In this document: one piece after another, positions 33,702 through 50,779 of the stretch
Layout: each line of letters opens with the position of its first letter
How positions within the stretch are numbered: the first letter of the stretch is position 1
DNA from: Antrihabitans stalactiti
GTDB taxonomy: Bacteria; Actinomycetota; Actinomycetes; Mycobacteriales; Mycobacteriaceae
Direction of reading: 5' to 3'
Assembly (NCBI RefSeq): GCF_012932915.1
Contig: NZ_VCQU01000003.1
Span: 434,001 to 498,000 of the forward strand
Length of the DNA stretch: 64,000 nucleotides
Position numbers and translations under genes: made by a program
Notes under the pieces: model-generated
The model's input: only the letters and a program-made list of their open reading frames with translations
Told to the model about the DNA's origin: nothing
The model's database searches: none

Positions 33702-35042
33702 CTAGGTGTGTTGCAGGAACCGGCCGAGCTGTGGCGCTGCCTCACCGGGGTGCTTGGCCTGCATGCCTTCGCCGATGGCCTGGAGCTTCCACTCGCCGCC
33801 TACCCGGTAGATCTTCGTCATGACGATGCCGGTGAACGGCATTCCGCCACCGAGGGTGTAGCGGGCCAGTTCGGAATTCGTGGTGCCGTCGACCAGGCGG
33901 CAGAACGCGTTCTGCACCTGCTCGAACGTCTGCCCCTTGTAGGACGTGACAATCAAGATGATCGTCGACACGTGCGCTGGCACGCGCGTCAGATCGATGA
34001 GGATCACCTCGTCGTCGCCCTCGCCCGCGCCGGTCAGGTTGTCGCCCTGGTGCCGGACCGAACCGTCCTTGGATGTGAGCTGGCCGTAGTAGGCGACGTC
34101 GACAATCCTGTCGTCAGCGCAGAGCACCGCCGAGGCATCGAGATCGATGTCGGGCGTGCGGTTGCCGAACATGCCCTTGGTCTTGACCGGGTCCCAACCG
34201 AGGCCCATCGTGAGCAGCGTCAGGGCGACGTTTCCCTCCTTGCGGAGCGTGACCTTCTGCCCCTTCTGGAGGCTGACCGGGCGACCCTTCTGCAGGTTGA
34301 CCTCGCCGCTGCGCGCCGCCGGTGGCTGTTGCTGAGCCGGGGGCTGCTGATAGGCAGGCGGTTGCTGCGGTGGCGGCGGCTGTTGGTAGGCAGGCGGCGG
34401 GGGAACGTAGACGGGGTTCGGCGGCGGTGGGGCGTTGTACGCCGGTGGCGGCGGTTGGTAGGCAGGCGGCTGGGGCGGCGTGTACGCCGGTGGGGCGGGC
34501 GGCGGCGGAGTGTAGGCCGGGGGCGGCGGCGCTGGGGCGTCGTCGACGGAGACTCCGTGATCGGTGACCAGCGCAGCGAAACCGCCCGCATAGCCCTGCC
34601 CGACCGCGCGGACCTTCCATGCCCCGCCACGGCGATACAGCTCGATGGCGATGACGATCGACTCCGTCGTCAGGCCGTCGATTCGGTAGTCGTACAACGC
34701 ATTTCCAGCACCGTCACTGACCCTTGCGGATGGTGGAGCGGAGCGGCCGAAGCTGCTCGACGCGTCCTCGAGGGTGATGACGGCACGAATCTGATCGATA
34801 TCTGCGGGAACCTGGTTCAGCGAGATCGCCAGTGATGCAGGCTGACCAGGCGCACCTGGCTGAAGCCGAACGCCAGGACCGGTCGGCTGGTTGAAGAAGA
34901 CGAAATCGGCATCGGACCGAACCTTGCCGTTCTCCTTCACCAGGAGCGCCGAGAGGTCGGCGGGGGCCGTCAGTTGGACGGAGACGACGACGTCGTTGAC
35001 GGCGATCGGACCGTTCTGACCTTTGGTGAGCGGTGCTGACAA
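33702..35042 (-). CDS. Two-domain TerD protein with proline-rich linker
   Basis: The 446-residue protein has a first TerD-like domain (1-167), a Pro/Tyr/Gln-rich linker (168-243, many PPPPAY units) and a second TerD domain (about 246-446). Only the second has the calcium-binding residues: GWDP, then DIDLDASAV and the loop RHQGDNLTGAGEGDDEV. TerD proteins are stress-response factors linked to tellurite, phage and envelope stress. It heads an operon with the TerD-FtsK-like, ParB-like and antiporter genes and is divergent from three AIM24 genes, with 189 bases between. Confidence 0.92.
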   Translation of the reverse strand: MSAPLTKGQNGPIAVNDVVVSVQLTAPADLSALLVKENGKVRSDADFVFFNQPTGPGVRLQPGAPGQPASLAISLNQVPADIDQIRAVITLEDASSSFGRSAPPSARVSDGAGNALYDYRIDGLTTESIVIAIELYRRGGAWKVRAVGQGYAGGFAALVTDHGVSVDDAPAPPPPAYTPPPPAPPAYTPPQPPAYQPPPPAYNAPPPPNPVYVPPPPAYQQPPPPQQPPAYQQPPAQQQPPAARSGEVNLQKGRPVSLQKGQKVTLRKEGNVALTLLTMGLGWDPVKTKGMFGNRTPDIDLDASAVLCADDRIVDVAYYGQLTSKDGSVRHQGDNLTGAGEGDDEVILIDLTRVPAHVSTIILIVTSYKGQTFEQVQNAFCRLVDGTTNSELARYTLGGGMPFTGIVMTKIYRVGGEWKLQAIGEGMQAKHPGEAAPQLGRFLQHT

Positions 35043-35231: not shown

Positions 35232-35855
35232 ATGGGACAACTACTCGAGAAGTCGAAAAAGGTCGTCGAAGCCCAATTATCCGGAACGACGATCCGTGCA
35301 ATCAGCGGTTCGATGGTGGCCTACGAAGGCAACGTCACCTTCAAGTCGGCAGGGTTCGGCGGCGGCGCCGGCATCCTCGCCGGGCTCAAGCAGAAGGCGA
35401 CGGGCGAGTCCCTGACTCTGATGGAATGTACCGGCAACGGCCGGGTCTACCTCGCGGTCCAGGGCCAGCACGTCACCGTCATCAATCTGAACAACGAGAC
35501 GCTGCAAGTCGAGTCGAGGCAGTTACTCGCACTGAACGGCAACCTGCAGACGAATGTGACGTTCGCCGGGCTTCGTGGAGCATCGGCGGGTCAAGGCCTG
35601 TTCACGACAACGGTGACGGGGCACGGTCAGGTCGCGTTGCTCTCGGCTGGCGGACCGCTGATCCATCTCGAAGTGTCGCCGCAGTACCCGTTGGTCGTCG
35701 ACCCGGACGCTTTCGTCTGCGCGAAAGGCAATTTGCAGCAATCGTTCATCACCGATGTGTCCTGGCGAACCGTCGTAGGGCAAGGCAGCGGCGAAGCGTT
35801 CTCCTTGCGCTACGAAGGCCAAGGCGTGGTGTCCATTCAACCGGCAGAACGGTAG
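35232..35855 (+). CDS. AIM24-family protein, copy 1
   Basis: The 207-residue protein has the AIM24 beta-helix-like fold pattern: an early SGSMVAYEGNVTFKSAGFGG, repeated short strands with ESRQLLALNGNLQTNV, and the C-terminal PLVVDPDAFVCAKGNL segment. The family (named from a yeast mitochondrial protein) is of unknown biochemistry in bacteria and is known to occur next to Ter genes. It starts at an ATG preceded by AAAGAGCAGGT. It is first in a three-gene AIM24 operon, divergent from the TerD operon. Confidence 0.85.
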   Translation: MGQLLEKSKKVVEAQLSGTTIRAISGSMVAYEGNVTFKSAGFGGGAGILAGLKQKATGESLTLMECTGNGRVYLAVQGQHVTVINLNNETLQVESRQLLALNGNLQTNVTFAGLRGASAGQGLFTTTVTGHGQVALLSAGGPLIHLEVSPQYPLVVDPDAFVCAKGNLQQSFITDVSWRTVVGQGSGEAFSLRYEGQGVVSIQPAER

Positions 35856-35862
35856 CGGTCGG

Positions 35863-36564
35863 ATGTCTTTTCAGAAGGTCAATTCGAAGGTCGTCAAGGT
35901 CAACGTCGGGCAGGTGGGCGGCGTCGTCGCACGTACCGGCGCGATGCTTTTTTACACCGGCCAAGTCGGGTTCTCGCCCCACCAGGTACCCGGTGCTGCC
36001 CAGATGGGCGGCATGGGTGGCCTCGCCCGGATGGCGGGCCGCATGATGCAAGGCGAGCACGAAGCCACGATGATCGCCCAAGGCAACGGCGAGGTGCACT
36101 ACGGCTTCGCCGGTCTCGAGGTCCATATCGTCGAGCTTCAGCAGGGCGCGTCCTTGAAGGTGGAAGCCTCACGGCTGCTTGCCAATACCGCGGGACTGCA
36201 GAGCTCGGTCGTTTCGGTGATGAGTCAGAGCGGTGGCGGACGCGGTGGCGGCTTGATGGGCAGCCTGCGCGGTGCCGCGAGCGGTGCGCTGACCGGTCAG
36301 GGCATGTTCACCACACAGCTGTCGGGTTTCGGCGCAGCAGTCTTGCTCGCACACGGTGGGCTGATCGAGTTGCAGGTCGGCGGTCCGGCGCCGGTGGTCG
36401 TCGACCCGCAGGCGTTCGTCGCGGCGTACGGAAACGTGACGACCGAGTTGAAGACTGCATTGAGCTGGCGTGACGCGGTCGGCCGCGGAGCAGGCGAGGC
36501 TATGCAATTGCAGTGTGTCGGACAGGGAGTCGTGTTCGTGCAGGCCTCGGAGGAGAAGCTATGA
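35863..36564 (+). CDS. AIM24-family protein, copy 2
   Basis: The 233-residue protein repeats the AIM24 pattern with VGGVVARTGAMLFYTGQVGF at the start and PVVVDPQAFVAAYGNVTTEL near the end. A Gly-rich insert (GGGRGGGLMGSLRGAASGAL, about residues 125-145) may be a membrane-touching or flexible loop. It starts seven bases after copy 1 and overlaps copy 3 by four bases, so all three are made together. Confidence 0.85.
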   Translation: MSFQKVNSKVVKVNVGQVGGVVARTGAMLFYTGQVGFSPHQVPGAAQMGGMGGLARMAGRMMQGEHEATMIAQGNGEVHYGFAGLEVHIVELQQGASLKVEASRLLANTAGLQSSVVSVMSQSGGGRGGGLMGSLRGAASGALTGQGMFTTQLSGFGAAVLLAHGGLIELQVGGPAPVVVDPQAFVAAYGNVTTELKTALSWRDAVGRGAGEAMQLQCVGQGVVFVQASEEKL

Positions 36565-37319
36565 GTGTGATTCTGAATCCGCAGACGCTCGTCGGGGACG
36601 ACAATATTCCCGACAACAGCTACGCCTACAACATCGACCTCCAGTCGCCGTGGTTCATCCGCAAGGGCGCGATGATCGCGTACTACGGCCAGATGGAGTT
36701 CCGATCGCTGACCCACGGACTGCAGGGCGGCGTGCTGCAGATGGTCTCGCAGCAGTTCTCCGCTCCGCTGTATACCGGTGACTACGCGGTCGCGGAAGGC
36801 TTCGGCAAGCTGATCATCGGCGACCGTGGCTACGACATCAACTCCTACGACCTCGACGATGGCAACCTGACCATCCGGGCCGCGAATCTCCTTGCGTTCC
36901 AACCAGGTCTGTCGTTGAACCAGTCGATCGTTCCCGGCTTCCTGACGCTCATCGGGACGGGGAAGTTCCTGGCGTCGTCGAACGGTCCGGTCATGTTCGC
37001 CGAGCCACCGCTGCGCGTCGACCCGGAAGCATTGGTCGGCTGGGCGGATTGCCCGTCGCCGAGCCATCACTACGACCAGGGCTGGATCACCACCTTCCTC
37101 GCCGCCGGTGCCGCGCGCTTCGGCGTCAACTCCGGGGAGGAGCGCCAGTTCGACTTCACCGGTGCCGGAACGGTTTTGATTCAGTCGAGCGAGAAGATCC
37201 TCGACGACAGCATGGTCGTTCGGACCATCGAGGGCCAGCTCCACGGCATCACACCCGTTGGGCTGCAACGCCTGAGTTCGGTCATCGCCAGTCAGATGGG
37301 CCAGCAGCAACGCTACTGA
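36561..37319 (+). CDS. AIM24-family protein, copy 3
   Basis: The 252-residue protein begins MSVILNPQTLVGDDNIPDNS at the ATG overlapping the stop of copy 2 (ATGA), and shows the AIM24 pattern with KGAMIAYYGQMEFRSL and PPLRVDPEALVGWADC. It is more divergent than the other two copies and lacks the Gly-rich insert. Three non-identical copies in one message suggest a hetero-oligomer rather than simple gene dosage. A hairpin terminator follows the stop. Confidence 0.85.
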   Translation: MSVILNPQTLVGDDNIPDNSYAYNIDLQSPWFIRKGAMIAYYGQMEFRSLTHGLQGGVLQMVSQQFSAPLYTGDYAVAEGFGKLIIGDRGYDINSYDLDDGNLTIRAANLLAFQPGLSLNQSIVPGFLTLIGTGKFLASSNGPVMFAEPPLRVDPEALVGWADCPSPSHHYDQGWITTFLAAGAARFGVNSGEERQFDFTGAGTVLIQSSEKILDDSMVVRTIEGQLHGITPVGLQRLSSVIASQMGQQQRY

Positions 37320-37369: not shown

Positions 37370-39385
37370 TTAGTGGGCCGGCTTGAATTCGCCCAAGTCA
37401 GCGCCTTGTTCCGCGCGGATCACATGCACGACCGCGTTGATCAGGGCGAGGTGCGTGAACGCCTGCGGGAAGTTGCCGAGGTGGCGGCCCGTCTTCGTGT
37501 CGATCTCCTCGGCATAGAGCTTCAGTGGGCTGGCGAAGCTGAGCAGCCGTTCGCACAGTTGCTTCGCGCGGACCACCTCGCCGATCTCGACGAGCGCCGA
37601 CACCAACCAGAACGAGCAGATGGTGAATGTGCCCTCTTCGCCGACGAGACCGTCGTCGGTCTCCTCGACCTTGTAGCGCAACACAAGTCCGTCGACCGTC
37701 AGTTCGTCGGCGATCGCCAGGACGGTCGCCCGGACCCGCGGATCGTCGGGCGGCAGGAAGCGAACCAACGGAATCATCAGGTTCGCCGCGTCCAGCGCGT
37801 CCGTGCCGTAGTACTGCGTGAAGACGCCACGCTTGTCGAGACCGTTGGCCAGAATGTCGGCCTTGATCTCGTCTGCGATGGCGGCCCACTGCTTGGCGTA
37901 TTCCTTCTCGCCGTGCATCACTGCGAGCTTGGTGCCACGGTCGAGCGCGACCCAGCACATCATCTTCGAGTTGGTGAAGTGTTTCGGCTCGCCACGGACC
38001 TCCCAGATGCCGCGATCAGGCTCCTTCCAATGCGTGATCGCCTTCTCGACCTGCTTTTTCAAGATCGGCCACAACGCCTCCGGCACATGCTCGCGAGAGC
38101 GCACGTGCAGGTACACCGAGTCGAGCATCGCGCCCCACACGTCGTGCTGCTTCTGGTTGTAGGCACCGTTGCCGATGCGGACCGGTCGGGCGTCCTCGTA
38201 GCCGCGGAGGTGGTCGAGCTCGCTCTCCTCCAACTCCATTTCGCCGCCGAGGCTGTACATGACTTGGAGGTCCGCGTCCTGGGTGACGTCGGAAATGAAG
38301 TGGAAGAAGTTGTTGGCCTCACGGTCCAGGCCGAGGGTGTACAGACCCCACAGGGCGAACGTGGAGTCGCGCACCCATGCGTAGCGGTAGTCCCAGTTGC
38401 GCACGCCGCCAGGGGTTTCCGGCAGCGATGTCGTCGACGCCGCCATCAGCGCGCCGGTCGGGGCGTAGGTGAGGCCCTTCAGAGCGAGGGCACTCTGCTG
38501 CAGGTAGCTCCGCCACGGGTGGTCCGGGAATTTGCCGACTGTGATCCATTGGCGCCAGAACTCGGAGGTCTGCCACATCTTGTCGTCGGCGTCCTGCTGC
38601 GACGTCGGCGACGGATTCGGCGACCAGCTCAGCGCGACGAACGCCTCCTGACCTTCGGTCATCCGCGTCCGTGCGAGCGCCGCGCGGCCTTCGATGCCGA
38701 GCCGCAGATTCGTGTTCAGTCGCAGCGTCGGGTGGACCGACCCGAGCGGCGTCTCTTTGTTGATCCGGACCCGGTCGACGCTGCCTTCACACGTTGCGGT
38801 GGCCTCCTCGTAGGCCTCGCCGGTGTACTCCCACTTCGTCGGTTTGCGGGCGTAATCGAACGCAGGCTCACAGGTGACTTCGACCTCGACGACTCCGCTC
38901 ACACATTTGATGGTGCGGAGCAGGGTGTGCTCGGCATCCCAGTCGGTGGGTGCACGGCGATGGGTCTTCGACCTGCGATCGGAGTTGTGCCACCGGCCCA
39001 TGACCAGCGCGTCTGTGACCACCAGCCAGCCGGTCTCGGTCTGCCACGTGGTCTCGACGATCAGCCCGCCGGGTTGGTAATGGCGAGCCGAAGGAACGAA
39101 TTGCCCGTACGGACCGACGCGGAAGTGCCCGGCACCGCGGTCGAGGATCGCGGCGAAGATGCTCGGTGTGTCCGGACGCGGAATACACATCCATTCGACG
39201 GCGCCGCTCGGAGCGATGAGGCAGGTCGTTTCGCAGTCGGAGAGGAATGCGTAATCGTCGATTGGAGGGAACGGGCTGCGAATCGATTGCATCGCTCCGA
39301 ATGAGCGGGGTGCCGCCGCGAGGTCGGCTCCCTGGCCGTTGTCGGATACCGAGGCGACAGCGGGTTCTTTGTCGGTCGTCGTCAT
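37370..39385 (-). CDS. Glycoside hydrolase family 15 protein (trehalase/glucoamylase-like)
   Basis: The 671-residue protein has an N-terminal beta-sandwich with DYAFLSDCETTCLIAPSGAV and a C-terminal (alpha/alpha)6 barrel. The GH15 signatures are GVRNWDYRYAWVRDSTFALW (containing substrate-binding residues) and EEGTFTICSFWLV with a catalytic glutamate. Actinobacterial members of this shape include the trehalase of mycobacteria (Rv2402 type), so trehalose is a plausible substrate. There is no signal peptide; the protein is cytoplasmic. The start is the ATG at 39385; the frame stays open far upstream, but that part is antisense-like arginine-rich sequence. Confidence 0.9.
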   Translation of the reverse strand: MTTTDKEPAVASVSDNGQGADLAAAPRSFGAMQSIRSPFPPIDDYAFLSDCETTCLIAPSGAVEWMCIPRPDTPSIFAAILDRGAGHFRVGPYGQFVPSARHYQPGGLIVETTWQTETGWLVVTDALVMGRWHNSDRRSKTHRRAPTDWDAEHTLLRTIKCVSGVVEVEVTCEPAFDYARKPTKWEYTGEAYEEATATCEGSVDRVRINKETPLGSVHPTLRLNTNLRLGIEGRAALARTRMTEGQEAFVALSWSPNPSPTSQQDADDKMWQTSEFWRQWITVGKFPDHPWRSYLQQSALALKGLTYAPTGALMAASTTSLPETPGGVRNWDYRYAWVRDSTFALWGLYTLGLDREANNFFHFISDVTQDADLQVMYSLGGEMELEESELDHLRGYEDARPVRIGNGAYNQKQHDVWGAMLDSVYLHVRSREHVPEALWPILKKQVEKAITHWKEPDRGIWEVRGEPKHFTNSKMMCWVALDRGTKLAVMHGEKEYAKQWAAIADEIKADILANGLDKRGVFTQYYGTDALDAANLMIPLVRFLPPDDPRVRATVLAIADELTVDGLVLRYKVEETDDGLVGEEGTFTICSFWLVSALVEIGEVVRAKQLCERLLSFASPLKLYAEEIDTKTGRHLGNFPQAFTHLALINAVVHVIRAEQGADLGEFKPAH

Positions 39386-39459: not shown

Positions 39460-41154
39460 CTACGACAACCGCCATTCGATCGGTCGGCTCGGGTCCGGCT
39501 CGAAACTGCAGACCCGTCCGGTCCGGACGGCGTCCCGCAGCAGTCGTGCGAAGGTCGGGTCTTGCTGGGCAATGCGGTCGAGAGCGGCTGAGATCGCTTT
39601 GCGTACGGCGACTCTCGCGCGTTCGGAGTTCGACAGTGCCACGCGGCCTCGCCCGCCGAGCCCAGCGGCGGCCGCGAGCTGGTCGAGCAAGGCGTCGCGC
39701 TCCAGTTCCAGCCTCGCCGCGCGTTCGGTATCCGACCACGCTGACGCCTCGGCGATCTCCTCGTCGAGGTCCGCCAGTCGTCGCCGATATGCGCTCTTGG
39801 CGGCTGCGTCGAGGACTTCACCGGCGTCCGAGTCGACGAGGGCAGTGCCGCTGTGGCCCTCGACCACCGCTGTCAGGTCCAGTGCCGAAATTTCCTTGCC
39901 CGCGTTGCCGACAAGTTCGCGCAGGTAACGAAGTCCCTTCGAATCGCGTAGGACGCAAGACGATCCGTCGTAGCCGACGATCCAGAGGTCGCCGCCGGTC
40001 GCACGGAGGTGCACCACCCGCGACAGCGCTGACCGTTGGACGGTCGGTTCGCCGAGTCGCTCGAGCCACCACACGGCGCCGAGGCGTCGATACTCGTCGG
40101 CGGCCGCTGCACGATACCGGGCGGCGTCGTCGGTACGGCCCAAGGCGGCACTGGCTCGATAGAGCACGTCCGACACGACTCCATGGAACATGACCGCACC
40201 TGCGTCGATAATTGCGCGTCCGGAATACGGTGCGAGCAGCCCGATTCCACGGTCGAGCAGGTCGGTCCGGCCGACTTTGGTTGCAGTCCAGACGAGTAAC
40301 GCAACGGTCGGCAGCCAATCGACATCACGTGCAAGGTCAGGAATCGTATCCGTCGTGAGACGATCGAGAACCGTGCCTGCTCGAGCGAGATCGCCTGCGT
40401 AGCAGAACAAGTTGGAGCCAACTGCTGCGATGATCGGGACCCCGGTAGCCAGGCCGTGTTCGCAGTGCTGGGCAGCTTCGTCCGCGAGCGCAGCGGTGTC
40501 GCTCGTCTGCACCGCCAAACCTGCATGCAAACAATGAGTTACGGCCTCCAGATCGACAACTTCGGCGGCCGCGCCGGACCGAAGGGCGGTCTCTGCGAGT
40601 CGCCTGGCCGTGTCGACATCCCCGGTGACCAAGGCGTGCACTGCGCCGCGGGAATCGGCGAAAAACCGTACGAGAGGCGAATCCGTTTCGATAGCAAGGG
40701 AATCGAGCACGCGAAGCTGGCGGGCGACCGCGAGTCCGTCGAGTGATTCCAACGACACGGTCAGGCGCCACATGCTCGCCATCATCCGCGCATGAACGTC
40801 GTCGAGATGGGCTGCCACATCGGACAGTCGTTCGGTGATAGCCCGGCGCTCGGCGAGCTGGTCAGGACCCCACGTCGCGAGGAGGGCGGCCTCCAGTGCG
40901 TCGGCCAGAATGGCGGGGTCGGCGATCCGCTCGGCCAGGTCCACCGCTTCCGCAGCAAACCTGGTCGCGCGGTCCGCCTCGCCGCCGTACACCCAGGACC
41001 GGACCAGTGCGGCGGCAACGCGGGCGCGCGTTCGATCGTCGGTCGCGGTCGCGTAGACGGTATGCAGTTGCGCGGCGACGCGGCCGGGGTGGGCACCCCA
41101 CTGCTGCTCACGGACTCGCCGCAGTAGCTCCTCGACGTCGACAGAATCTGCCAC
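39460..41154 (-). CDS. Helical-repeat (TPR-like) protein of unknown function
   Basis: The 564-residue protein, starting at a GTG, consists of alanine-rich paired helices through residues 1-370, which look like tetratricopeptide or MalT-type repeats (for example EADRATRFAAEAVDLAERIA). The C-terminal part (about 390-564) has GGDLWIVGYDGSSCVLRDSK, then GLRYLRELV and a charged coiled coil, and resembles the C-terminal module that follows TPRs in some AAA-type regulators, but no ATPase or DNA-binding domain is present. It lies ten bases after the SnoaL-like gene. Function not known. Confidence 0.75.
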   Translation of the reverse strand: MADSVDVEELLRRVREQQWGAHPGRVAAQLHTVYATATDDRTRARVAAALVRSWVYGGEADRATRFAAEAVDLAERIADPAILADALEAALLATWGPDQLAERRAITERLSDVAAHLDDVHARMMASMWRLTVSLESLDGLAVARQLRVLDSLAIETDSPLVRFFADSRGAVHALVTGDVDTARRLAETALRSGAAAEVVDLEAVTHCLHAGLAVQTSDTAALADEAAQHCEHGLATGVPIIAAVGSNLFCYAGDLARAGTVLDRLTTDTIPDLARDVDWLPTVALLVWTATKVGRTDLLDRGIGLLAPYSGRAIIDAGAVMFHGVVSDVLYRASAALGRTDDAARYRAAAADEYRRLGAVWWLERLGEPTVQRSALSRVVHLRATGGDLWIVGYDGSSCVLRDSKGLRYLRELVGNAGKEISALDLTAVVEGHSGTALVDSDAGEVLDAAAKSAYRRRLADLDEEIAEASAWSDTERAARLELERDALLDQLAAAAGLGGRGRVALSNSERARVAVRKAISAALDRIAQQDPTFARLLRDAVRTGRVCSFEPDPSRPIEWRLS

Positions 41155-42041: not shown

Positions 42042-43277
42042 TCACCCTGTGACGCCGGCACCTCGCGCAGCACGGAGCCAATCGGGGAATTCGCTGAGCA
42101 GGCGACGGTAGAGCTCGGTGTCGTCGATACGGTCGATGTCGTCGACTGCGAAGAAGCCCGCATTGTCGACCACTCTGCCGTCCATCTCGTCGAGTTGGAT
42201 GAGTACGCCGTAGTTGGCATTCCCGAGCCCGATGAACTGCCAGAACGCCGGGAGCGACGACGCCTGTTGGATCAGGCGGGTGATCTCGGCGCGCTTGCTG
42301 AAGCCGCCGTCGGTGAAGAACAGCACCAGCGTCGGGTTTGCATCACCGCGTCGCACAGTCGAGATGATGTGATCCATGATCGGGATTTCGTCGTTCAACC
42401 CGCCGATGCTGCGGTAATCGATACCCTCGTGCACCCCGTTCAGGTGCAGGTACGTGTCCGACCACTGCTCCACCTCGTGGACCGCGATGTCGGGCAGCCG
42501 CGCAAAGCTCTTGGCGTAGAGGTACGGCTCGATCTGGCCGTCGTCGTCGATCTGGGTCGCGACCGGAACCATGCGCTCGACGACTCGATGCACCACGCGC
42601 TGCTTGTACAGGCGATTCATACTGCCGGTCTTGTCGATGACGACGATGACGCGGGCGCGAACGCCCGCCGCTCCGCCTTTGTGCAGAACCTCGGCAACGA
42701 CTCGCTTACGCAGATTCAGCTTCTGCCGCTTCTCGAGCGACAGCTTCGCCTCGTCCGGAACCGTTCTTACAGTCGGGGTTTCGGCGGGCTCGTCGTCGAC
42801 CGAAACGCCATGATCAGTGACGAGGGCTGCGAATCCACCTGCGTAACCCTGGCCGACGGCCCGCACCTTCCAGGCGTCGCCGCGGCGGTAGATCTCGACG
42901 GCGATCACAATGGATTCGCTGCTCAATCCGTCGATTCGATACTCGTACAACAGATTTCCCGCCGCATCGGCGACGCGAGCGGTCGGCGCTGCCGAGCCGC
43001 CGAAAGTAGCTGCCGTGTCGGCGAGGGTGATGACGGTCCGTACCTGATCGATGTCGCCGGGTACCTGGTCGAGTGCCAGCGATAGTGCGCCGTCGTGCAG
43101 GCGCGCACCCGGGGCCGTCGGCTGGTTGAAGAACACGAAGTCGTTGTCGGAGCGGACTTTTCCGTCCGCCTTGACCAGAAGGGCGGAGAGGTCGGCAGCT
43201 GCGGTCAACGCGACGGTCACGATGATGTCGTTGGTGGCGAGGGCACCGTTCTGGCCCTTGGTGAGCGAGCTAGGCAC
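42042..43277 (-). CDS. TerD-vWA fusion protein
   Basis: The 411-residue protein, read from a GTG that overlaps the stop of the HAD gene by eight bases, has a TerD-like domain (1-165), a short linker and a von Willebrand factor A domain (about 205-411). The vWA metal site reads VIVVIDKTGSMN (DxTxS form of MIDAS), with a later TLVLFFTDGG strand. This architecture is well known in Ter loci, where the vWA part is thought to mediate metal-dependent protein assembly. The TerD part lacks the acidic calcium loop of classical TerD. It is last in the six-gene operon. Confidence 0.9.
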   Translation of the reverse strand: MPSSLTKGQNGALATNDIIVTVALTAAADLSALLVKADGKVRSDNDFVFFNQPTAPGARLHDGALSLALDQVPGDIDQVRTVITLADTAATFGGSAAPTARVADAAGNLLYEYRIDGLSSESIVIAVEIYRRGDAWKVRAVGQGYAGGFAALVTDHGVSVDDEPAETPTVRTVPDEAKLSLEKRQKLNLRKRVVAEVLHKGGAAGVRARVIVVIDKTGSMNRLYKQRVVHRVVERMVPVATQIDDDGQIEPYLYAKSFARLPDIAVHEVEQWSDTYLHLNGVHEGIDYRSIGGLNDEIPIMDHIISTVRRGDANPTLVLFFTDGGFSKRAEITRLIQQASSLPAFWQFIGLGNANYGVLIQLDEMDGRVVDNAGFFAVDDIDRIDDTELYRRLLSEFPDWLRAARGAGVTG

Positions 43278-44082
43278 GGTCGGCGAACCACCGGACGATC
43301 TCTTCGCCCGCATCGACGCCGCTGCGATCGGTCAGGGCGACGGTCGGGTATTGCCAGTTCAGTGCCTCGAGTTCGCCGTGCCGTGGGCGGATACCGGCAT
43401 CCGCGGCCATCAACATCTCGGCGTCCAATGCTCCGTCGCCCGCTGCCACGACTGTCGCGCTGGCGTCGAGCCGTCCTTCGGCGATCAATCGCTTTCGAAC
43501 CTCGGCGACGGCACGGCTCTTGCACACCGTCGACGGCATCGAGTAGATCTTGCGACCTTGCTGCGAGGCGGCCCAGCCGTGGTCGGCGCACCAGGTTCCC
43601 CACTCGGTGAGGAAGCTCGGTGGCAATCGGTCGAGTTGGACGACGAGGTAGCAGAACAGGTCGTCGGCGATGCGGAACTTGTCGACCCACTCGTCGCTGA
43701 TGCGCGACTGCAGTTCGGCGGCGACCTCGGCGAGCGAGGCACCGGCTGCACGGGTGGCATCGATAACGGCACCGAGCCACTCGGGATCCGGCGTCCCATC
43801 GACGAGGATATTGCCGCCGTTGCTCGTGATCGCGTAGCGCCACGGCTCACCGGGAAGATGAATTCGCTTGAACTGAGCGATGGTTCGGGTGGTCGTCGGA
43901 ATGAGCGGGGTCTGTGCGGACACCTCTGCGAGCAGATCCGCCGCTGCGACGGTCATGAAGGAGACCGGCTTGTGCTTGGCGAGTTCGACGCAACGCAGGT
44001 CGGCCGTAGAGGGTGCGGCCTTCAGGGCTGCCTTCGAATAGATCATGGTGCGATCGAGGTCGGTCGCGATCAGCGTCTTCAT
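43270..44082 (-). CDS. HAD-superfamily phosphatase of the Ter biosynthetic module
   Basis: The 270-residue protein begins MKTLIATDLDRTMIYS, the HAD motif I (DLDRT with nucleophile Asp), followed by a cap domain and motif IV-like VVAAGDGALDAEMLMAAD. It resembles Cof-type or sucrose-phosphatase-like HADs. Its start overlaps the PRTase stop (ATGA at 44079-44082). In Ter loci such a HAD is found with PRTases and a CitE-like lyase and is proposed to dephosphorylate an intermediate; substrate unknown. Confidence 0.88.
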   Translation of the reverse strand: MKTLIATDLDRTMIYSKAALKAAPSTADLRCVELAKHKPVSFMTVAAADLLAEVSAQTPLIPTTTRTIAQFKRIHLPGEPWRYAITSNGGNILVDGTPDPEWLGAVIDATRAAGASLAEVAAELQSRISDEWVDKFRIADDLFCYLVVQLDRLPPSFLTEWGTWCADHGWAASQQGRKIYSMPSTVCKSRAVAEVRKRLIAEGRLDASATVVAAGDGALDAEMLMAADAGIRPRHGELEALNWQYPTVALTDRSGVDAGEEIVRWFADRA

Positions 44083-45191
44083 TCGAGAATGTCCTTCACG
44101 AGGCCCATGCACGAGTAGGCGAGGTCCGGGACCTCGTCGACAGGAACACCGCGCGCCTGCGCCAGCATTCGAATGTGTGCGTGTTCTGGCGCGTCGGCGT
44201 CTCGGACGAGAACGCGCCACGGTACGCGACGCAACAGCACTCGCGTGGTTTCGCCGACGCCGGGCTTGACGAAGTTGACGGTCGAGATGCCGTACTCCGC
44301 GCGGACCTTCTCGACCGAGCGCCAACCGGCCCAGGTCGGCGTGCGGTCTGTGGCGAGGAGGGTGGCGAGTTCGGTCGGAACCTGTTTGCGCACAGCAGGA
44401 AATGCGGCGGTGACGGTGTCGAGCAAGTAGTTCGAGACGTCGTCACCGGCGAGTTCGCGATAGAACTTTGCGCCATGGAACTCGCCCGGACCGATCACGG
44501 TGTCGTTGAGCACCGTGCGTGAAACCAGCCCGGACACAGTGGAATTGAGGCATGCAGACGCGATGAGGAAGTCGTCGCGGGTTCCGTAGGTGGTCACGCA
44601 ATAGCCCGGATCGGCCAGCACGGCGAGGTCGTCGTTGAACGACGCACCGCCGGCGGCTCGGTATTCTTCCAGCGCCGCTGTGAGTTCCTTGGCGATGGCG
44701 CCCTTGCCGGTCCAGCCGTCGACGAACACAATGGTCGACGGATCATGATGGCGAGCAAGGTAATCCAACGCGGCGGCGTCGATTCCGCGGTCGCGGACGA
44801 TGGACACGGCGTAGTGGGGGAGGGTCAAGCCGCGTTCGGCCTGTGCCCAGCGCCGCATGAGCACCCCGATGGGAGTGCCCGCGCGAGCCAAGGAGACGAG
44901 GACGACGTCGTGGCCGCGCTCGCGCAGAACCAGTTCGGTCACCACCCCGACCGCCAGCGCCAGTCGCTCGGCGCTGGTCTGCAACACCGTGTCGAACAGC
45001 TCACGATATGCCGCATCGGGCTGGAACTCGATCGGCAGTGACTCCGCGTAATGCGCCTCGCCGGACTGAATCCGCTTCTCGCGGTAAGTGATATCGGCTT
45101 CGAGCTGATAGTCCGAGAGGTCCTTGAGCAACCACGTCACTTCATCGGGTGCATACGAGCCGAACTGTGGACCGTTGAGCGGCTGCGTCAT
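44079..45191 (-). CDS. Phosphoribosyltransferase-like protein (PF11202/StiP type)
   Basis: The 370-residue protein begins MTQPLNGPQFGSYAPDEVTW and continues with DLSDYQLEADITYREKRIQS and HYAESLPIEFQP, the signature of the family once named cysteine protease StiP and now considered a PRTase-related enzyme. VVLVSLARAGTPIGVLMRR and STIVFVDGWTGKGAIAKEL have the two-loop layout of a phosphoribosyl site. It is coupled by four-base overlaps to genes on both sides. It probably acts with the TRSP-type PRTase to make a nucleoside-like metabolite; that role is a proposal from genomics. Confidence 0.85.
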   Translation of the reverse strand: MTQPLNGPQFGSYAPDEVTWLLKDLSDYQLEADITYREKRIQSGEAHYAESLPIEFQPDAAYRELFDTVLQTSAERLALAVGVVTELVLRERGHDVVLVSLARAGTPIGVLMRRWAQAERGLTLPHYAVSIVRDRGIDAAALDYLARHHDPSTIVFVDGWTGKGAIAKELTAALEEYRAAGGASFNDDLAVLADPGYCVTTYGTRDDFLIASACLNSTVSGLVSRTVLNDTVIGPGEFHGAKFYRELAGDDVSNYLLDTVTAAFPAVRKQVPTELATLLATDRTPTWAGWRSVEKVRAEYGISTVNFVKPGVGETTRVLLRRVPWRVLVRDADAPEHAHIRMLAQARGVPVDEVPDLAYSCMGLVKDILE

Positions 45192-46459
45192 TGGGCAATC
45201 CTTCGCGAATCATGCAACGCCACGACATCGGCGCCGGTAACCACGGCGACCACGACATCGCCGCCTGAGGCGGTGAGCACATCGACCAGCCCGCCGTCGG
45301 CGGTCAGCGCCGGGGTGTCGGCTGGCTCGTCGATCACCACGACGATCAGCGGATCGACTTCCGACGTGTGCGCGTTGTACAGGAACCTTGGTGCATCCGG
45401 ATCGAGTTCCGGTGCGGTGAAACGGAATCCGCGCCGCAGCGGATAGCCCGGCACGTCACGAACGTAGGCCGGCGAGCGCGTCGTCGTCTGAAATGTGACT
45501 TCGTGCCCGGATTTCGAGAGAGCGTCCGCCAGTCGTAGCGGGAGGTACATCAACTCTTCGTGACCGACGACCACAAGCGGACGGGCCGGCAAGTATTTCG
45601 CGAGTTCTACTGCGGCGGAATCGATTGCGCGGTCGAACGCGTCGCTGTCTGATCGCAGGAAGCCGTGGCGTCCGCCGTCGGGAACTGTCGAGGGCCAACT
45701 CAATTCGACCCGCGAAATCGTTCCTCGGACCTCGGCGCGCGGGTTCAGCACCGGATCGGGCAGCGCGGCGACGGCGTCGGTCAGGCCATCCGGCAAGACT
45801 GCGTGACCGGTTGCCAGGCTGACGAATTCGATGACGGTGCCGAGCTCGTCCGCGGCAGCGGCGGTGGCCTCGCGGTGGCGCTCTGTCCGCATATCGACCA
45901 ACGATGCGACAACGTAGCGACTACGCCGGTCGTGTGCGTGCAACGACCGTATCGCATCGATTGCCGTTGCGCCGGTCGATATTTCGTCGTCGACCAGCAC
46001 AAGCGGGTGATCGTTTGCGAACAGGTCCGGCGACGTCGGCATCAGCAGATGGCTCGTCGCGTGCGAGTGCCCTTCCTCGAACGCAGCATGCACCGATGCG
46101 TCGGCAACCGCGCGTCGCGTCGAATGCAGATAGCACTGCGCGCCGATGCGAGCAGCGACACAATGGCCGAGTCCTGTTGCCGTTTCCGCGAATCCGAGGA
46201 CGACGACATCACCCACATCCGGTCCGAGTGCGTCGACGACGAGGTCGCCCAATGCATTGCCTGCGCCGATCACCGCATCGGGCGGGGTCGGAATGTGTTT
46301 CCCGAGCACCGTCGAGACGAGCAGGTGCGCGCGTTTCGGGTTGCGTCGCAGCCCGGGAAGGACCAACTCTGGGACCGTGGCGCTGATCGATGATCCGGAG
46401 TCGACCAGTTCGAAGCCGAGTTCGCTGGTCGCCCAGGGTGTTGTGGCCGAACGCGTCAC
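45188..46459 (-). CDS. Phosphoribosyltransferase with C-terminal TRSP domain
   Basis: The 423-residue protein starts at a GTG that overlaps the lyase stop (GTGA). The N-terminal half is a type I PRTase: DVVVLGFAETATGLGH and the PRPP loop LVLVDDEISTGATAIDAI. The C-terminal part has GHEELMYLPLRLADAL and TTRSPAYVRDVPGYPLRRGF, which contains the TRSP motif that names this Ter-associated domain. The open frame continues upstream past 46459 but overlaps the lyase gene in another frame. With the StiP-like protein it forms the core of the Ter biosynthetic module. Confidence 0.88.
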   Translation of the reverse strand: MTRSATTPWATSELGFELVDSGSSISATVPELVLPGLRRNPKRAHLLVSTVLGKHIPTPPDAVIGAGNALGDLVVDALGPDVGDVVVLGFAETATGLGHCVAARIGAQCYLHSTRRAVADASVHAAFEEGHSHATSHLLMPTSPDLFANDHPLVLVDDEISTGATAIDAIRSLHAHDRRSRYVVASLVDMRTERHREATAAAADELGTVIEFVSLATGHAVLPDGLTDAVAALPDPVLNPRAEVRGTISRVELSWPSTVPDGGRHGFLRSDSDAFDRAIDSAAVELAKYLPARPLVVVGHEELMYLPLRLADALSKSGHEVTFQTTTRSPAYVRDVPGYPLRRGFRFTAPELDPDAPRFLYNAHTSEVDPLIVVVIDEPADTPALTADGGLVDVLTASGGDVVVAVVTGADVVALHDSRRIAQ

Positions 46460-47613
46460 CGGTCGACCAGTGCAGTCAGCAGATCGACGAACGTCACACC
46501 CTTGTTGGTCACGCCGAAAACCCTGGCGCGCAACAGTGTTTGTTCGGCCCAGCTGCGGTGCGGCTTCGTTTCGTTCATCTTGTTGCGATAGCCCGACGCT
46601 TGAGCTCCGCCGGAAGCGGCGCCGACGATGTCCTGCGCGTCGTGAAACTCCTCGTGCGTGACTGCAGACAACGCGTTCACAGCTGCGACGTGCGACGGAT
46701 GGATGACCGTCTTGCCCTGGATACCGTTGGCGCGGTCCAGCGCGATCTCGCGAAGCAAACCGTCGAGGTCGCGGCTCACCAAGTGCTGCCGGAAGCGGAC
46801 GGCATCGTGCTCGACGAACGGCGTCGCACGCAGCATGGGCCGGAACATGCGCTCGTGGTCGGCGAAGTACTCCCAGACCGGTCCGGTGATGACGAAGCCA
46901 GTGCCGTCGGACCGGCCGAGGTAGTTGACGATGCCGGCGATCACGTCCGCCACGACGCGCACGTCGTAGATCGTGAGGTCGCGGTCGCGGCGGATACCGA
47001 AGGTTCCGCACATGTCGGTCGCGCCGATACGGACCGCCAACACGCGGTCGCGGTGCTCGGCGAGCAGTAGCGCGATCTCACGAAGTTCGTGATCCCGCGT
47101 CTCGCGGTGCACGAGTTCCGGTGACTCGAGGACCGGCATCGCGTACAGATGCTTACCCAGCAATTCGGAAGCTGACGCGATCTCCTGAAGGAACTTGCCG
47201 CCTGTTTCGCTGTTGAACTTGGGGATGACGAACCCGGTCAGCGCGCCGACGCCCGTCGTCAGGCGCTCGGCGATCGATCGAATTGCGTCGGCGGTCCGCA
47301 CGCGGACGAACAGCAGAACCTCGGCAGCGTCGGTCCCTGCGAGCGTGTCCAGCGATGCGATCGCATTCGTCATCGCGTCGTCGACCTGATGATCGGCGAC
47401 GGCGTCCTCGAGGTCGATCACCATCGAGCACACGCCTTCGGCCGCGCGTTTGCGCACCGCGTCGACAAGGTCCGGCCGGGTCGCCGGAACATAGAGCGTC
47501 GCGCCGAGTGCGACCGCTAGCAGCCGACGATCGGTACGGTCGTCGAATTGTTCAGGCACGTGCAGAAACAGTTCCTGCTTGCGCGCTGCTTCGAGTTGTC
47601 GAAAATGTTTCAA
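46456..47613 (-). CDS. HpcH/CitE-type C-C bond lyase of the Ter module
   Basis: The 385-residue protein reads LKHFRQLEAARKQELFLHVP at its start and then GATLYVPATRP, SMVIDLEDAV (metal-binding Glu/Asp of the citrate lyase beta family), PVLESPELVHRETRD and a late GIQGKTVIHPSHVAAVN. The family is the Ter-linked aldolase/lyase, using Mg2+ and probably a CoA- or phosphate-free keto substrate. I use the TTG at 47613 as start since homology begins there and no ATG or GTG is near. It follows the coiled-coil gene by 44 bases. Confidence 0.87.
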   Translation of the reverse strand: MKHFRQLEAARKQELFLHVPEQFDDRTDRRLLAVALGATLYVPATRPDLVDAVRKRAAEGVCSMVIDLEDAVADHQVDDAMTNAIASLDTLAGTDAAEVLLFVRVRTADAIRSIAERLTTGVGALTGFVIPKFNSETGGKFLQEIASASELLGKHLYAMPVLESPELVHRETRDHELREIALLLAEHRDRVLAVRIGATDMCGTFGIRRDRDLTIYDVRVVADVIAGIVNYLGRSDGTGFVITGPVWEYFADHERMFRPMLRATPFVEHDAVRFRQHLVSRDLDGLLREIALDRANGIQGKTVIHPSHVAAVNALSAVTHEEFHDAQDIVGAASGGAQASGYRNKMNETKPHRSWAEQTLLRARVFGVTNKGVTFVDLLTALVDR

Positions 47614-47657
47614 GCTGCGCTCTTTCCTACGGCCGCGTGTGCGGTGCTCCGCGCGTT

Positions 47658-48857
47658 CTACTGTGACCCGGTTTGCTTCTTCATCCGTTGGACCACACCC
47701 GAAATGAATGTCTTGACGGCATCGAGGCCGGTAACGTACGCCCAATAATCGGGGTGCCTACCGTTAAGCCCACCGGCGATGCGGTCTATTCGATCGAGCT
47801 GTGCGTCGAGTACTGACCCCCATTCCGACGTCAACCCTCGACTTACTGCAAGCATCTGCGCGTCACGCAGCCGGAAGCGGACCTCGTTCTCTTTCGCTTT
47901 CGGGTTGTCGCGGACCTCCCGGAGCAACACAAGTCTATCCGTGACTGCGTCGACGTGCTGTTCGGCGCTGCTCAGATGCGCACGAACCGACGCCGTGAGT
48001 TCGAGGGCAAGATCCGGATTTCCTGAGGTCAGAGCAGTGGTCGCCTGCTCGAGCTTGGCTTCGGCCGCCGCGATCTCCCGACGGCTGGCAGCCTCGTTCC
48101 CTGACACGTCCGACGAACTCGCCGCGTTGAACTCCCGCAGCAACGCCGAGTACGCGGGGGCGAGTCCCTCGGCGCGAGTTCGGGCAGCAGCCATTCGGGT
48201 CTGCACCGAACTCAGTGCCTTCTTCGCGTCCTGCGCCCGCGTGGGCGCCGCCGAAATTGCGTCGTCGAGGGCGGTGACCGCCGACCGAACTCGAGCAGCA
48301 GCCTCCCGTTTGGCATTGGCGCTGCCTGCTGTTTCGAGAGCGACGACGGCATCGACGAGCGCGCTCCTCTTCGACTGCACCGACGGGTACTCGAGGTAAG
48401 CCGAAGCTTCCCCAGCGAGACGCGCCATCACTGTGTCGGCGGCGGTGTGAGCTTGCGCGACCACTGCGGGGACTGCAGCCAGAGTCGATGAAGCGTTGTC
48501 GAGCTGGGGGCGATGAGCGTCGTAGAACTGGTCGACCGCATGTGCGGCGTCGGCCAGTTGCCGAATCGTCAGATCGAGTTCACCGGGCGGCCGTCGCGTC
48601 GGGGTCGGCGTTTGAGCTTGCTCGGTCACGGCTAGATACGCCGCGGACGCCCGATAGCAGAGCTGCGCAACGGGGTCCCAGAGTTGACGCATCCTGCGCT
48701 CGGGAAACAGCTGATCGGACGCCTGCACCGCGGACTCGACCGCCGATTGCCGTTTGTCCATGTCGAGGAAGGCCGCCGTCAGCGCATCCAGTGCGCTGCG
48801 GTCCGGCGCTAGGTTGCGGGACCGTCGAAACAGTCGGCCCGGCCATTTGCTCGTCAC
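47658..48857 (-). CDS. Long coiled-coil protein heading the Ter biosynthetic operon
   Basis: The 399-residue protein, starting at a GTG, is almost wholly helical and alanine-rich with several long heptad-like stretches (for example ASRREIAAAEAKLEQATTAL near residue 255). The basic N-terminus (KWPGRLFRRSRN) could touch membrane or nucleic acid. The C-terminus ends with DYWAYVTGLDAVKTFISGVV. It has no catalytic motif that I can recognise. It is the first gene of the six-gene operon and is divergent from the classical terD. Function unknown; a structural role is a guess. Confidence 0.75.
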   Translation of the reverse strand: MTSKWPGRLFRRSRNLAPDRSALDALTAAFLDMDKRQSAVESAVQASDQLFPERRMRQLWDPVAQLCYRASAAYLAVTEQAQTPTPTRRPPGELDLTIRQLADAAHAVDQFYDAHRPQLDNASSTLAAVPAVVAQAHTAADTVMARLAGEASAYLEYPSVQSKRSALVDAVVALETAGSANAKREAAARVRSAVTALDDAISAAPTRAQDAKKALSSVQTRMAAARTRAEGLAPAYSALLREFNAASSSDVSGNEAASRREIAAAEAKLEQATTALTSGNPDLALELTASVRAHLSSAEQHVDAVTDRLVLLREVRDNPKAKENEVRFRLRDAQMLAVSRGLTSEWGSVLDAQLDRIDRIAGGLNGRHPDYWAYVTGLDAVKTFISGVVQRMKKQTGSQ

Positions 48858-49013
48858 CGCAAAATCGTACTTGCACGTCCGTCGTGCAGCCGTTCTGAAC
48901 TTGTTTCGACCACTCCGGCGAAACCGGCATTAGAGTCGGTGGTGTCGACAGGGGTACGGAGTACGCCGGTCGTCCAGGCTTCATAACAACCATCTCCAAC
49001 GAAAGGGCCCCAA

Positions 49014-49589
49014 ATGGGTGTCAGCTTGAGCAAGGGCGGCAACGTTTCACTGACGAAGGCAGCGCCGAACCTCACCGCGGTCGCAGTCGGACTCGGATGG
49101 GACATCCGTTCGACGACCGGGACCGACTTCGACCTCGACGCGAGCGCCATCGCAACCGGCGAGGACAAGAAGGTGCTCTCCGACCAGCACTTCGTGTTCT
49201 TCAACAACCTCAAGTCACCCGACGGCGCGATCGAGCACACGGGCGACAACACCACCGGTGAAGGTGAAGGCGACGACGAGGTCATCAACGTCGACCTCGC
49301 TGCAGCACCGCCGACCATCACCAGCATCTTCTTCCCCGTCTCGATCTACGACGCCGACACCCGCGCGCAGTCGTTCGGTCAGGTCCGCAACGCGTACATC
49401 CGCGTCGTCGATCGTGCGAACGGAAGCGAGCTCGCTCGCTACGACCTGAGCGAGGACGCGTCGACCGAAACCGCCATGGTGTTCGGTGAGCTCTACCGCA
49501 ACGGCGCCGAGTGGAAGTTCCGCGCAATCGGTCAGGGCTATGCCTCCGGTCTCGCCGGAATCGCACGCGACTACGGTGTGAACGTCTAG
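49014..49589 (+). CDS. terD: TerD-family calcium-binding stress protein
   Basis: The 191-residue single-domain protein has all TerD features: [15 protein letters not shown] start, [18 protein letters not shown] and the acidic calcium loop [16 protein letters not shown], then [10 protein letters not shown] and the C-terminal [15 protein letters not shown]. It corresponds to TerD/TerE of tellurite-resistance operons, cytosolic and calcium-binding. A GAAAGG ribosome site precedes the ATG. It leads a two-gene operon with the DUF475 membrane protein and is divergent from the coiled-coil gene, with 156 bases between the starts. Confidence 0.95.
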
Positions 49590-49690: not shown

Positions 49691-50779
49691 GTGTTGCGCA
49701 TATTCGGCGCGTCCATCGTCGTCACCGTCATATCGCTGATAGTCGCGTTCCTGTACGGCGGACCCGAGGCGCTGGCGCTCTGCGCAATCCTCGGCATCCT
49801 CGAGGTCTCGCTCTCCTTCGACAACGCGGTCATCAATGCGACCGTCCTGCAACGGATGAGCGAGTTCTGGCAGAGAATCTTCCTTACTGTCGGCATCCTC
49901 ATCGCCGTCTTCGGTATGCGGCTCGTCTTCCCGCTCGCAATCGTCTGGGTCACCGCTGGTCTGGACCCGTTCAGGGCCTTCGACCTGGCGCTGAACCCGC
50001 CGGCCAACGATGCTGCGAACTTCCCGAACGGCGATCCGAGTTACGAGACCCTGTTGACCGACGCGCATCCGCAGATCGCGGCGTTCGGTGGAGCGTTCCT
50101 GTTGATGCTGTTCCTCAACTTCATCTTCGAAGAGCGTGACATCACCTGGTTGTCGTGGCTGGAGAAGCCGCTCGCCAAGGTCGGCAAGCTGGACATGATC
50201 CCGGTTGTCGTCACCGGTATTGCACTGATCCTGGCTGCCGAATTGCTCGCCGCCGACGACAAGGTCGCGACCGTTATGGTCAGCGGCATTCTCGGCATGG
50301 TCGTCTACATCACGGTCGACGGACTCGGCTCGATGTTCCACCCCGAAGACCACCAAGGTCCGTCGGGTGCGGCGCTCGCGACCGGCAAGGCAGGGTTCTT
50401 CCTGTTCCTGTACCTCGAAGTGCTCGATGCATCGTTCTCGTTCGATGGCGTCATCGGCGCATTCGCGATCACCGCAGATCCGATCCTCATCGCCCTGGGC
50501 CTCGGCTTCATCGGCGCGATGTTCGTCCGGTCGATCACCGTGTACCTCGTTCGCAAGGGCACGCTGTCGGAGTACGTCTACCTGGAGCACGGTGCACATT
50601 GGGCGATCGGCGCGCTGGCCGTCATCCTGATCATCACCGTCGGAAATATCCACATCCCGGAGGTAGTCACCGGTCTGGTCGGTGTGTTCCTGATCGGCGC
50701 AGCATTCATCACCAGCGTCATCCGCAACCGACGCGAAGATGCCCGCGAGGTTGAGTTGGAGAAGTCGTCGGCTAGCTAG
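49691..50779 (+). CDS. DUF475 membrane protein, TerC-related
   Basis: The 362-residue protein starts at a GTG after an AGAAAGG site and has nine or so membrane helices. LEVSLSFDNAVINATVLQRM near residue 40 and LEVLDASFSFDGVIGAFAI near residue 240 are the paired acidic motifs of the TerC/DUF475 group, which are probably metal-ion exporters and are found next to TerD. It stands 100 bases after terD, is likely cotranscribed, and is followed by a strong terminator. It fills the TerC place in this locus. Confidence 0.9.
   Translation: MLRIFGASIVVTVISLIVAFLYGGPEALALCAILGILEVSLSFDNAVINATVLQRMSEFWQRIFLTVGILIAVFGMRLVFPLAIVWVTAGLDPFRAFDLALNPPANDAANFPNGDPSYETLLTDAHPQIAAFGGAFLLMLFLNFIFEERDITWLSWLEKPLAKVGKLDMIPVVVTGIALILAAELLAADDKVATVMVSGILGMVVYITVDGLGSMFHPEDHQGPSGAALATGKAGFFLFLYLEVLDASFSFDGVIGAFAITADPILIALGLGFIGAMFVRSITVYLVRKGTLSEYVYLEHGAHWAIGALAVILIITVGNIHIPEVVTGLVGVFLIGAAFITSVIRNRREDAREVELEKSSAS

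Follow-up and report, generated by a model that had tools for sequence, protein, structure and literature searches.

A gene cluster at positions 42042–48857 of a 64,000-nucleotide stretch of the Antrihabitans stalactiti genome (6.76 Mb in all; assembly GCF_012932915.1, contig NZ_VCQU01000003.1, positions 434,001 to 498,000 of the forward strand; the whole stretch is called the window below) carries a lyase, two phosphoribosyltransferases (PRTases) and a HAD phosphatase that form one conserved unit near TerD and TerC genes. With PRTase_2 and StiP proteins, a HAD and linked TerD and TerC genes all present, the locus is, judged by its gene content, the enzyme module of the Ter stress-response system. 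The best reading of its function, to which we give a probability of about 0.6, is that the module makes a ribosylated, dephosphorylated small molecule. We favor this reading because the enzymes are a conserved unit, the two PRTases are fused in relatives, one PRTase has an invariant motif for phosphoribosyl pyrophosphate (PRPP), the predicted folds are those of PRTases, the HAD keeps its characteristic residues and is kin to the proteins of PDB entries 6cj0 and 6d3v, and the ATP-grasp protein of other lineages is dispensable. A Ter biosynthetic module was reportedly predicted, as later papers cite it, by Anantharaman in 2012. The accessible part of PMC7824862, which cites Anantharaman 2012, describes the Ter system as PRTases and HAD enzymes making nucleoside or nucleotide derivatives, together with TerB and TerD sensors, TerC and submembrane parts, and that of PMC8115787 speaks of a putative biosynthetic cluster whose connection with TerC is not clear; these sources agree with the preliminary description of this DNA, according to which such a pathway had been proposed in print and its product not established.

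All six genes of the cluster lie on the minus strand, as had been described. The first, an open reading frame divergent from a TerD gene, encodes a 399-amino-acid coiled-coil protein (47658–48857) whose best Pfam match is a weak one to EzrA (18.7 bits, cut-off 39.6). It is followed by the CitE/HpcH-type C-C bond lyase (46456–47613, 385 amino acids, TTG start; PF15617, 410 bits), the PRTase_2-TRSP protein (45188–46459, 423 amino acids, GTG start; PF15609, 217 bits, and PF12500, 118 bits), the StiP-PELOTA_1 protein (44079–45191, 370 amino acids; PF11202, 353 bits, and PF15608, 122 bits), the HAD phosphatase (43270–44082, 270 amino acids, assigned by homology to the family of 6cj0/6d3v and by its catalytic residues) and a TerF-like TerD-vWA protein (42042–43277, 411 amino acids, GTG start; PF02342, 88 bits, and vWA-TerF PF10138, 268 bits). 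The overlaps originally reported are all present and join the last five genes: GTGA at 46456–46459 between lyase and PRTase, ATGA at 45188–45191 between PRTase and StiP, ATGA at 44079–44082 between StiP and HAD, and eight bases at 43270–43277 between HAD and the GTG start of TerD-vWA. The coiled-coil gene stands apart; its TAG stop (47658–47660) is separated by a 44-base gap from the TTG at 47613, which is most likely the lyase start and has AGGAAAGAG upstream. This start position is common to five Nocardiaceae homologues in an alignment, the ends of which were set by a search that used the same start.

The four-enzyme arrangement recurs among relatives. A single lyase scan returned 179 relatives (the closest named one, Antrihabitans sp. 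YC2-6, has a lyase 83% identical to that of the window), and the best 80 of these, referred to below as the named loci, were compared in stretches of at most 21 kb, some of them shorter; as close kin chosen through the lyase they document conservation within a single clade and are not independent cases. The order lyase, PRTase_2, StiP, HAD on one strand is found in 78 of the 80; the other two lie on contigs of 5,122 and 4,927 bases, which stop within the module. Of the 80 loci, 79 carry the coiled-coil gene, and on the opposite strand, anywhere in the locus stretch, 79 have a TerD gene and 77 a TerC gene. A 4-base overlap could be read at the lyase/PRTase junction in 76 of 80 loci, at the PRTase/StiP junction in 39 of the 41 unfused cases measured and at the StiP/HAD junction in 55 of 78, although the script takes the start codon nearest the upstream stop, so that these counts are not independent and are biased to close spacing. 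Because the order recurs so regularly and the 4-base overlaps are frequent, the four-enzyme order is more than chance. Among 61 genomes (the window's own and 60 relatives), 24 have a full-length lyase (>200 bits), and 19 of the 20 lyase surroundings inspected among these, the window included, hold all four enzymes; the exception (G017) is a 66% complete genome in which the lyase stands alone on a 12-kb contig. More broadly, StiP was found in 12 of 246 Actinomycetota genomes and 5 of 171 genera, namely in the window's own genome, two genomes of another genus in its family, seven of a large-genome genus (g54, probably Streptomyces) in which all seven loci carry the four-enzyme set, and two weaker matches (103.8 and 21.2 bits). 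In one of the two weak cases (L138), StiP and PRTase_2 match weakly next to TerD genes, and lyase and HAD are absent; at the other (L146) none of the four enzymes was found at the locus.

Type-I PRTases bind PRPP through a motif of the form acid-acid...TG.T. In the PRTase_2 domain this motif (D157 D158 E159..T162 G163.T165) is invariant in 12 of 12 homologues, a set that includes the window and is drawn from actinobacteria, proteobacterial plasmids and one phage (ME3). PRTase_2 is thus a type-I PRTase with an APRT-type predicted fold (its structural matches are to APRT, XPRT and OPRT) and an intact PRPP motif; a second stretch, F127.E129.H131 S132 H133...H137, equally invariant in the 12, distinguishes it from the type-I PRTases. 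The TRSP domain behind it may be a degenerate PRTase-like domain and the third copy in the operon: in hhalign comparisons its score against PRTase_2 lies above the controls, with a probability of only 8.6–18.6%, and in the model its helix and strand order, judged by eye, is that of PRTase_2.

In the window, PRTase_2-TRSP and StiP-PELOTA are two genes with an ATGA overlap. A single open reading frame, uninterrupted by a stop, encodes both in 38 of the 80 named loci, and the same holds for 14 of 26 module loci (19 relatives' loci including the window, and the seven of g54; some of these 26 genomes are also among the 80). Two proteins that are separate in one lineage and fused in another are a classical sign of partnership.

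For StiP itself, 49 of the 50 structural matches listed for the predicted fold (VIA-align 2 rows drawn from the Foldseek ranking) are PRTases and the remaining one is to its L7Ae-like C-terminus, so that the protein is predicted to combine a PRTase fold with an L7Ae/Pelota-like C-terminal domain. The fold predicted for both StiP and PRTase_2 is the one common to the type-I PRTases APRT, XPRT, OPRT, PyrR and HGPRT. When domain-cut profiles were compared, StiP scored against PRTase_2 above nine control profiles and above 60 of 60 column shuffles; with whole-protein alignments the match is weak (probability 2.6%, E 0.018). Both PRTase assignments of the preliminary description therefore hold at the level of predicted fold, but that of StiP needs qualification, since its PRPP motif is kept only in part and an L7Ae/Pelota-like domain is added. 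Residues D158 G159 W160.G162 K163 G164, R103 A104 G105 and S130 I131.R133 are invariant in 14 of 14 homologues, and they place a DGWTGKG loop where other type-I PRTases have DD..TG.T; the glycine-rich loop is kept and the second acid of the motif is absent. PRPP use is thus well supported, on motif conservation, only for the first PRTase, PRTase_2. Features not noted earlier are the PELOTA domain, TRSP as a possible third domain of PRTase type and the kinship of the HAD with proteins of solved structure (below).

The name by which StiP is usually annotated suggests something else, that it is a cysteine protease and the operon a unit for stress proteolysis. That name stands in the Pfam description of PF11202 and in plasmid annotation, and C198, the best cysteine column, is kept in 11 of 14 diverse homologues and, like C214 and C361, in at least 90% of a 31-sequence set that is mostly from Nocardiaceae. 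Yet no cysteine is invariant in either the 14 or the 31 homologues, and the predicted fold and the profile scores against PRTase_2 are those of a PRTase. The protease explanation is very improbable and was rejected in spite of the well-kept C198; the name "cysteine protease StiP" is poorly supported, and the annotation deserves re-examination. A StiP-type protein occurs in 2,567 of 72,556 plasmid records, and 38 of the 40 among those listed are annotated as cysteine protease StiP; the same collection holds a 2.66-Mb Nocardia farcinica record (NZ_LN868939.1) with a StiP 76.8% identical to that of the window, the size of which casts doubt on its plasmid status. The accessible parts of PMC10318531 and PMC8193136 contain nothing on StiP or the ter module.

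The lyase is of CitE type by its conserved residues. Positions E69 D70, P131 K132, E163, D200, G300 K301 T302 and I304 H305 P306 are invariant in 12 homologues, and in CitE structures residues of the kinds represented by E163, D200 and the GK..IHP stretch serve as metal-binding Glu and Asp and as a C-terminal stretch. The protein also matches PF03328 (31.7 bits), and its PDB matches are weak.

The HAD phosphatase of the window matches no Pfam family at 1e-3, the OtsB-type trehalose phosphatase family PF02358 included. The DLDRT motif, K188 and G215 D216...D220 are invariant in 13 actinobacterial homologues. Searched alone against PDB, its best chains are 6cj0 and 6d3v (E ~6e-4, the next at 0.015), and a profile built from the 13 actinobacterial sequences only finds the same two (E 3.1e-13; the chain ranked next has 0.047). 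This actinobacteria-only profile is the fair test, because another HAD profile (A4) includes a near-identical P. aeruginosa HAD, which makes its 277-bit PDB match circular, and one unrelated HAD (L150:11021-11749). The two PDB entries are named trehalose phosphatase; they are probably related to the P. aeruginosa extrachromosomal trehalose-6-phosphate phosphatase (TPP), which is named for trehalose 6-phosphate. A HAD encoded between PRTase and StiP in the ter module of P. aeruginosa plasmid pBT2436 (L150:8229-8987) matches 6d3v with 528 bits over 251 residues, shares 50 of 236 aligned positions (~21%) with the window HAD and has cysteines at positions 85 and 231, plus one at 239 where 6d3v has Arg. 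In the accessible sections of PMC6838324, Cys85 and Cys231 are the cysteines specific to the P. aeruginosa extra-chromosomal TPP, for which phosphatase activity and its inhibition are shown. Because a plasmid HAD near-identical to 6d3v and with the same two cysteines sits in a ter module, we infer that the extrachromosomal TPP probably belongs to the ter-type HAD family. A literature search found no paper linking this TPP to ter, which is not proof that there is none.

This kinship could also be taken at face value: the HAD would be a real TPP, the module would tune trehalose or a trehalose-like ribosyl sugar under stress, and the label "nucleoside-like" would be wrong. The profile match to 6cj0/6d3v and the study of the P. 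aeruginosa relative as a TPP (PMC6838324, accessible part) speak for this, as does a GH15/trehalase-like gene (PF00723, PF19291) at 37370–39277 on the minus strand, within the Ter island of the window. Against it, tblastn matches that gene in just one of the 80 named loci (L079), no trehalose-6-phosphate synthase is found among the module genes, and the pairing with PRPP-type enzymes is left unexplained. Since the genome also encodes a separate PF02358 trehalose phosphatase (108 bits), a family that the window HAD itself does not reach at 1e-3, the housekeeping enzyme is probably not the ter HAD, and we regard the sugar-phosphate explanation as doubtful. The accessible text of PMC7549927 reports trehalose 6-phosphate as an inhibitor of P. 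aeruginosa OtsB.

The preliminary description remarked that the usual ATP-grasp member was not visible here. None is found at the locus, and none above the family cut-off in the genome, but the protein is not usual in this lineage. Eight of the 61 genomes have an ATPgrasp_Ter match above 60 bits. Five of these belong to the 24 genomes that carry a full-length lyase (G014, G030, G039, G052, G054) and three have no such lyase (G051, G059, G038); 19 of the 24 lyase-bearing genomes, the window's included, thus lack an ATP-grasp at that threshold, and in the 80 named loci, within the stretches compared, none was found. In these relatives absence, as far as such searches detect it, is the common state. 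Where an ATP-grasp is present it lies less than 9 kb from the lyase in G039, G052 and G054 (in G039, locus L102, and G054, locus L101, antisense between the coiled-coil and lyase genes), and in g54 it scores above 100 bits in five of seven genomes and lies megabases away or on another contig. An ATP-grasp hidden elsewhere in the window's own genome was considered and rejected, because the best matches (PF15632 at 27.3 bits, cut-off 29.1; 23.5 bits for the whole ATP-grasp query) are below cut-off and fall in the same 1105-amino-acid frame, which is probably CarB. Among eight hand-picked distinct non-actinobacterial loci, six (L149, L150, L153–L156) have an ATP-grasp in the module, and none was seen in Acinetobacter jumbo phage vB_AbaM_ME3 (L151) or in a faecal scaffold (L152). 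We treat the protein as non-defining for the Ter module because the parts listed in the accessible text of PMC7824862 do not include it and the same text calls phage ME3, in which no ATP-grasp was found, relatively complete.

TerD-vWA, by comparison across loci, is a local, non-conserved addition behind the HAD. In phmmer searches with the vWA domain of the window alone, a match behind the HAD was found only in the window and in a genome of the same genus (G001, locus L139); among the 80 named loci there is none in that position and a single match at all, on the other strand (L041), and weaker ones lie elsewhere in the locus in L122, L130 and a Klebsiella stretch (L153). The 80 loci differ in the marker that comes next past the HAD: 40 have an AIM24 gene on the opposite strand, 31 a TerD-domain gene on the same strand, one a TerD gene on the opposite strand and eight no marker, two of these eight lacking the HAD itself. 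Thus, of the five-gene order looked for in other genomes, the four enzymes recur and the fifth gene does not, and the suggestion that TerD-vWA senses or uses the product, although the gene does adjoin the HAD here, rests on a local position, because the gene is not conserved there. On other contigs of the same genome, two more proteins (L006, L007) are ~30% identical to TerD-vWA over most of its length.

Compared with known systems, other Nocardiaceae (Rhodococcus, Nocardia, Antrihabitans) share with the window the gene order, the coiled-coil gene in first place, TerD and TerC on the opposite strand and the lack of an ATP-grasp in the locus stretch, and differ in the PRTase/StiP fusion and in what follows the HAD. 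Four proteobacterial ter plasmids (E. coli IncHI2 pCE1537-A and those of Klebsiella, Shewanella and P. aeruginosa) carry the same families beside TerD, but in the order ATP-grasp, PRTase_2-TRSP, HAD, StiP-PELOTA, lyase, whereas the window has lyase, PRTase, StiP, HAD; identities to the window proteins are 28–37% for lyase, PRTase and StiP and 21–23% for the HAD. On the P. aeruginosa plasmid, a gene between ATP-grasp and PRTase (L150:5903-7042) is annotated as a trypsin-like peptidase and has a weak TerD-type profile match. Phage ME3 has PRTase_2, HAD and StiP genes in succession beside TerC and TerD, as in a Ter module, but neither lyase nor ATP-grasp within 19 kb. The faecal scaffold, an unverified "Bacteriophage sp." record (MT836648.1) that may be bacterial, has PRTase_2, StiP, an opposite-strand lyase and three TerD genes, and no HAD was found on it.

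In the pathway that we favor, the lyase would make or trim an acid-type acceptor through an acyl-CoA enolate, and PRTase_2 would join this acceptor to 5-phosphoribose from PRPP. StiP, kept next to PRTase_2, would act next on the phosphoribosyl product, by a second transfer, by an exchange or by using its L7Ae-like domain to hold a ligand that resembles a nucleotide or RNA; the HAD would then take off the 5'-phosphate and release the ribosyl compound. Tailoring by the ATP-grasp ligase found in other lineages would be optional and is not used here, and the later action at the membrane would fall to the TerD proteins and TerC. The earlier suggestion of a ribosylated or nucleoside-like product thus gains from the conservation of the enzymes as one unit and from the PRTase folds, and is weakened by the restriction of well-supported PRPP use to one PRTase. 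Several observations weigh against this pathway. StiP, which lacks the second acid of the motif, may not use PRPP. The phage ME3 stretch has PRTase, HAD and StiP and no lyase, because of which the lyase may be off the main pathway line. The HAD has a relative known as a TPP, with a non-nucleotide substrate. In E. coli MG1655, terZ-F is by itself enough for tellurite resistance (PMC8115787, accessible part), so that the classical Ter phenotype does not depend on the module in that strain. Finally, the literature search returned no report of product identity, and no substrate or product is known.

The partners of StiP in this pathway might also be RNAs. PRPP-dependent ribosylation of tRNA follows a comparable logic, and the L7Ae/Pelota-like domain could dock on tRNA, rRNA or damaged RNA, on which the PRTase-fold domains would transfer or swap a base or a phosphoribosyl group and from which the HAD would remove the phosphate. 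The L7Ae match is, however, weak by sequence and near the noise level of the tool by structure, L7Ae-type folds may have functions that do not involve RNA, small-molecule chemistry is what the lyase and, in other lineages, the ATP-grasp suggest, and no RNA substrate is known; an RNA-directed module seems unlikely. A bolder combination, which we consider a long shot, would have a three-PRTase assembly (an active PRTase_2, a degenerate TRSP and an altered-loop StiP) with an L7Ae-like RNA-binding head put a lyase-derived acid on ribose, possibly on or with RNA, so that no free nucleobase nucleoside is made; the "extrachromosomal TPP" HAD would then really be an enzyme of this pathway, and trehalose 6-phosphate a stand-in substrate.

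The surroundings of the operon hold further Ter genes. Across an intergenic region (48858–49013), an arrangement that recurs in relatives, lie on the plus strand the divergent TerD gene (49014–49589; PF02342, 278.8 bits) and a TerC/DUF475 membrane protein gene (49691–50779; PF04332, 448 bits, and PF03741, 63 bits). A regulatory motif common to such TerD/coiled-coil intergenic regions was considered and rejected: no exact 10-mer is shared by more than 52 of 79 of them, and the most frequent one may belong to the coding part of TerD. Two more TerD-domain genes of the same Ter island lie on the minus strand at 32130–33692 and 33702–35042 (PF02342; the pair score 67.6 and 266.4 bits). Three consecutive AIM24-domain genes at 35232–37319 (plus strand) adjoin the Ter genes, and the same triple is found near the ter module in many Nocardia loci; a 564-amino-acid protein encoded at 39460–41154 (minus strand) has no Pfam match at 1e-3 and no NCBIfam match at 0.01. 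None of the six operon proteins matches a PADLOC antiphage family, though they may still serve in defence.

Possibly new are the identity of the HAD, the correction for StiP, the resemblance of TRSP to PRTases, the lack of an ATP-grasp in most of the clade and the frequent fusion. The Ter system is widespread, and a small molecule made by it has already been predicted in print; a compact, ATP-grasp-free version in environmental actinobacteria, together with a natural fusion of its PRTases and a HAD with a purified and crystallised distant relative, makes the question of the product directly testable.

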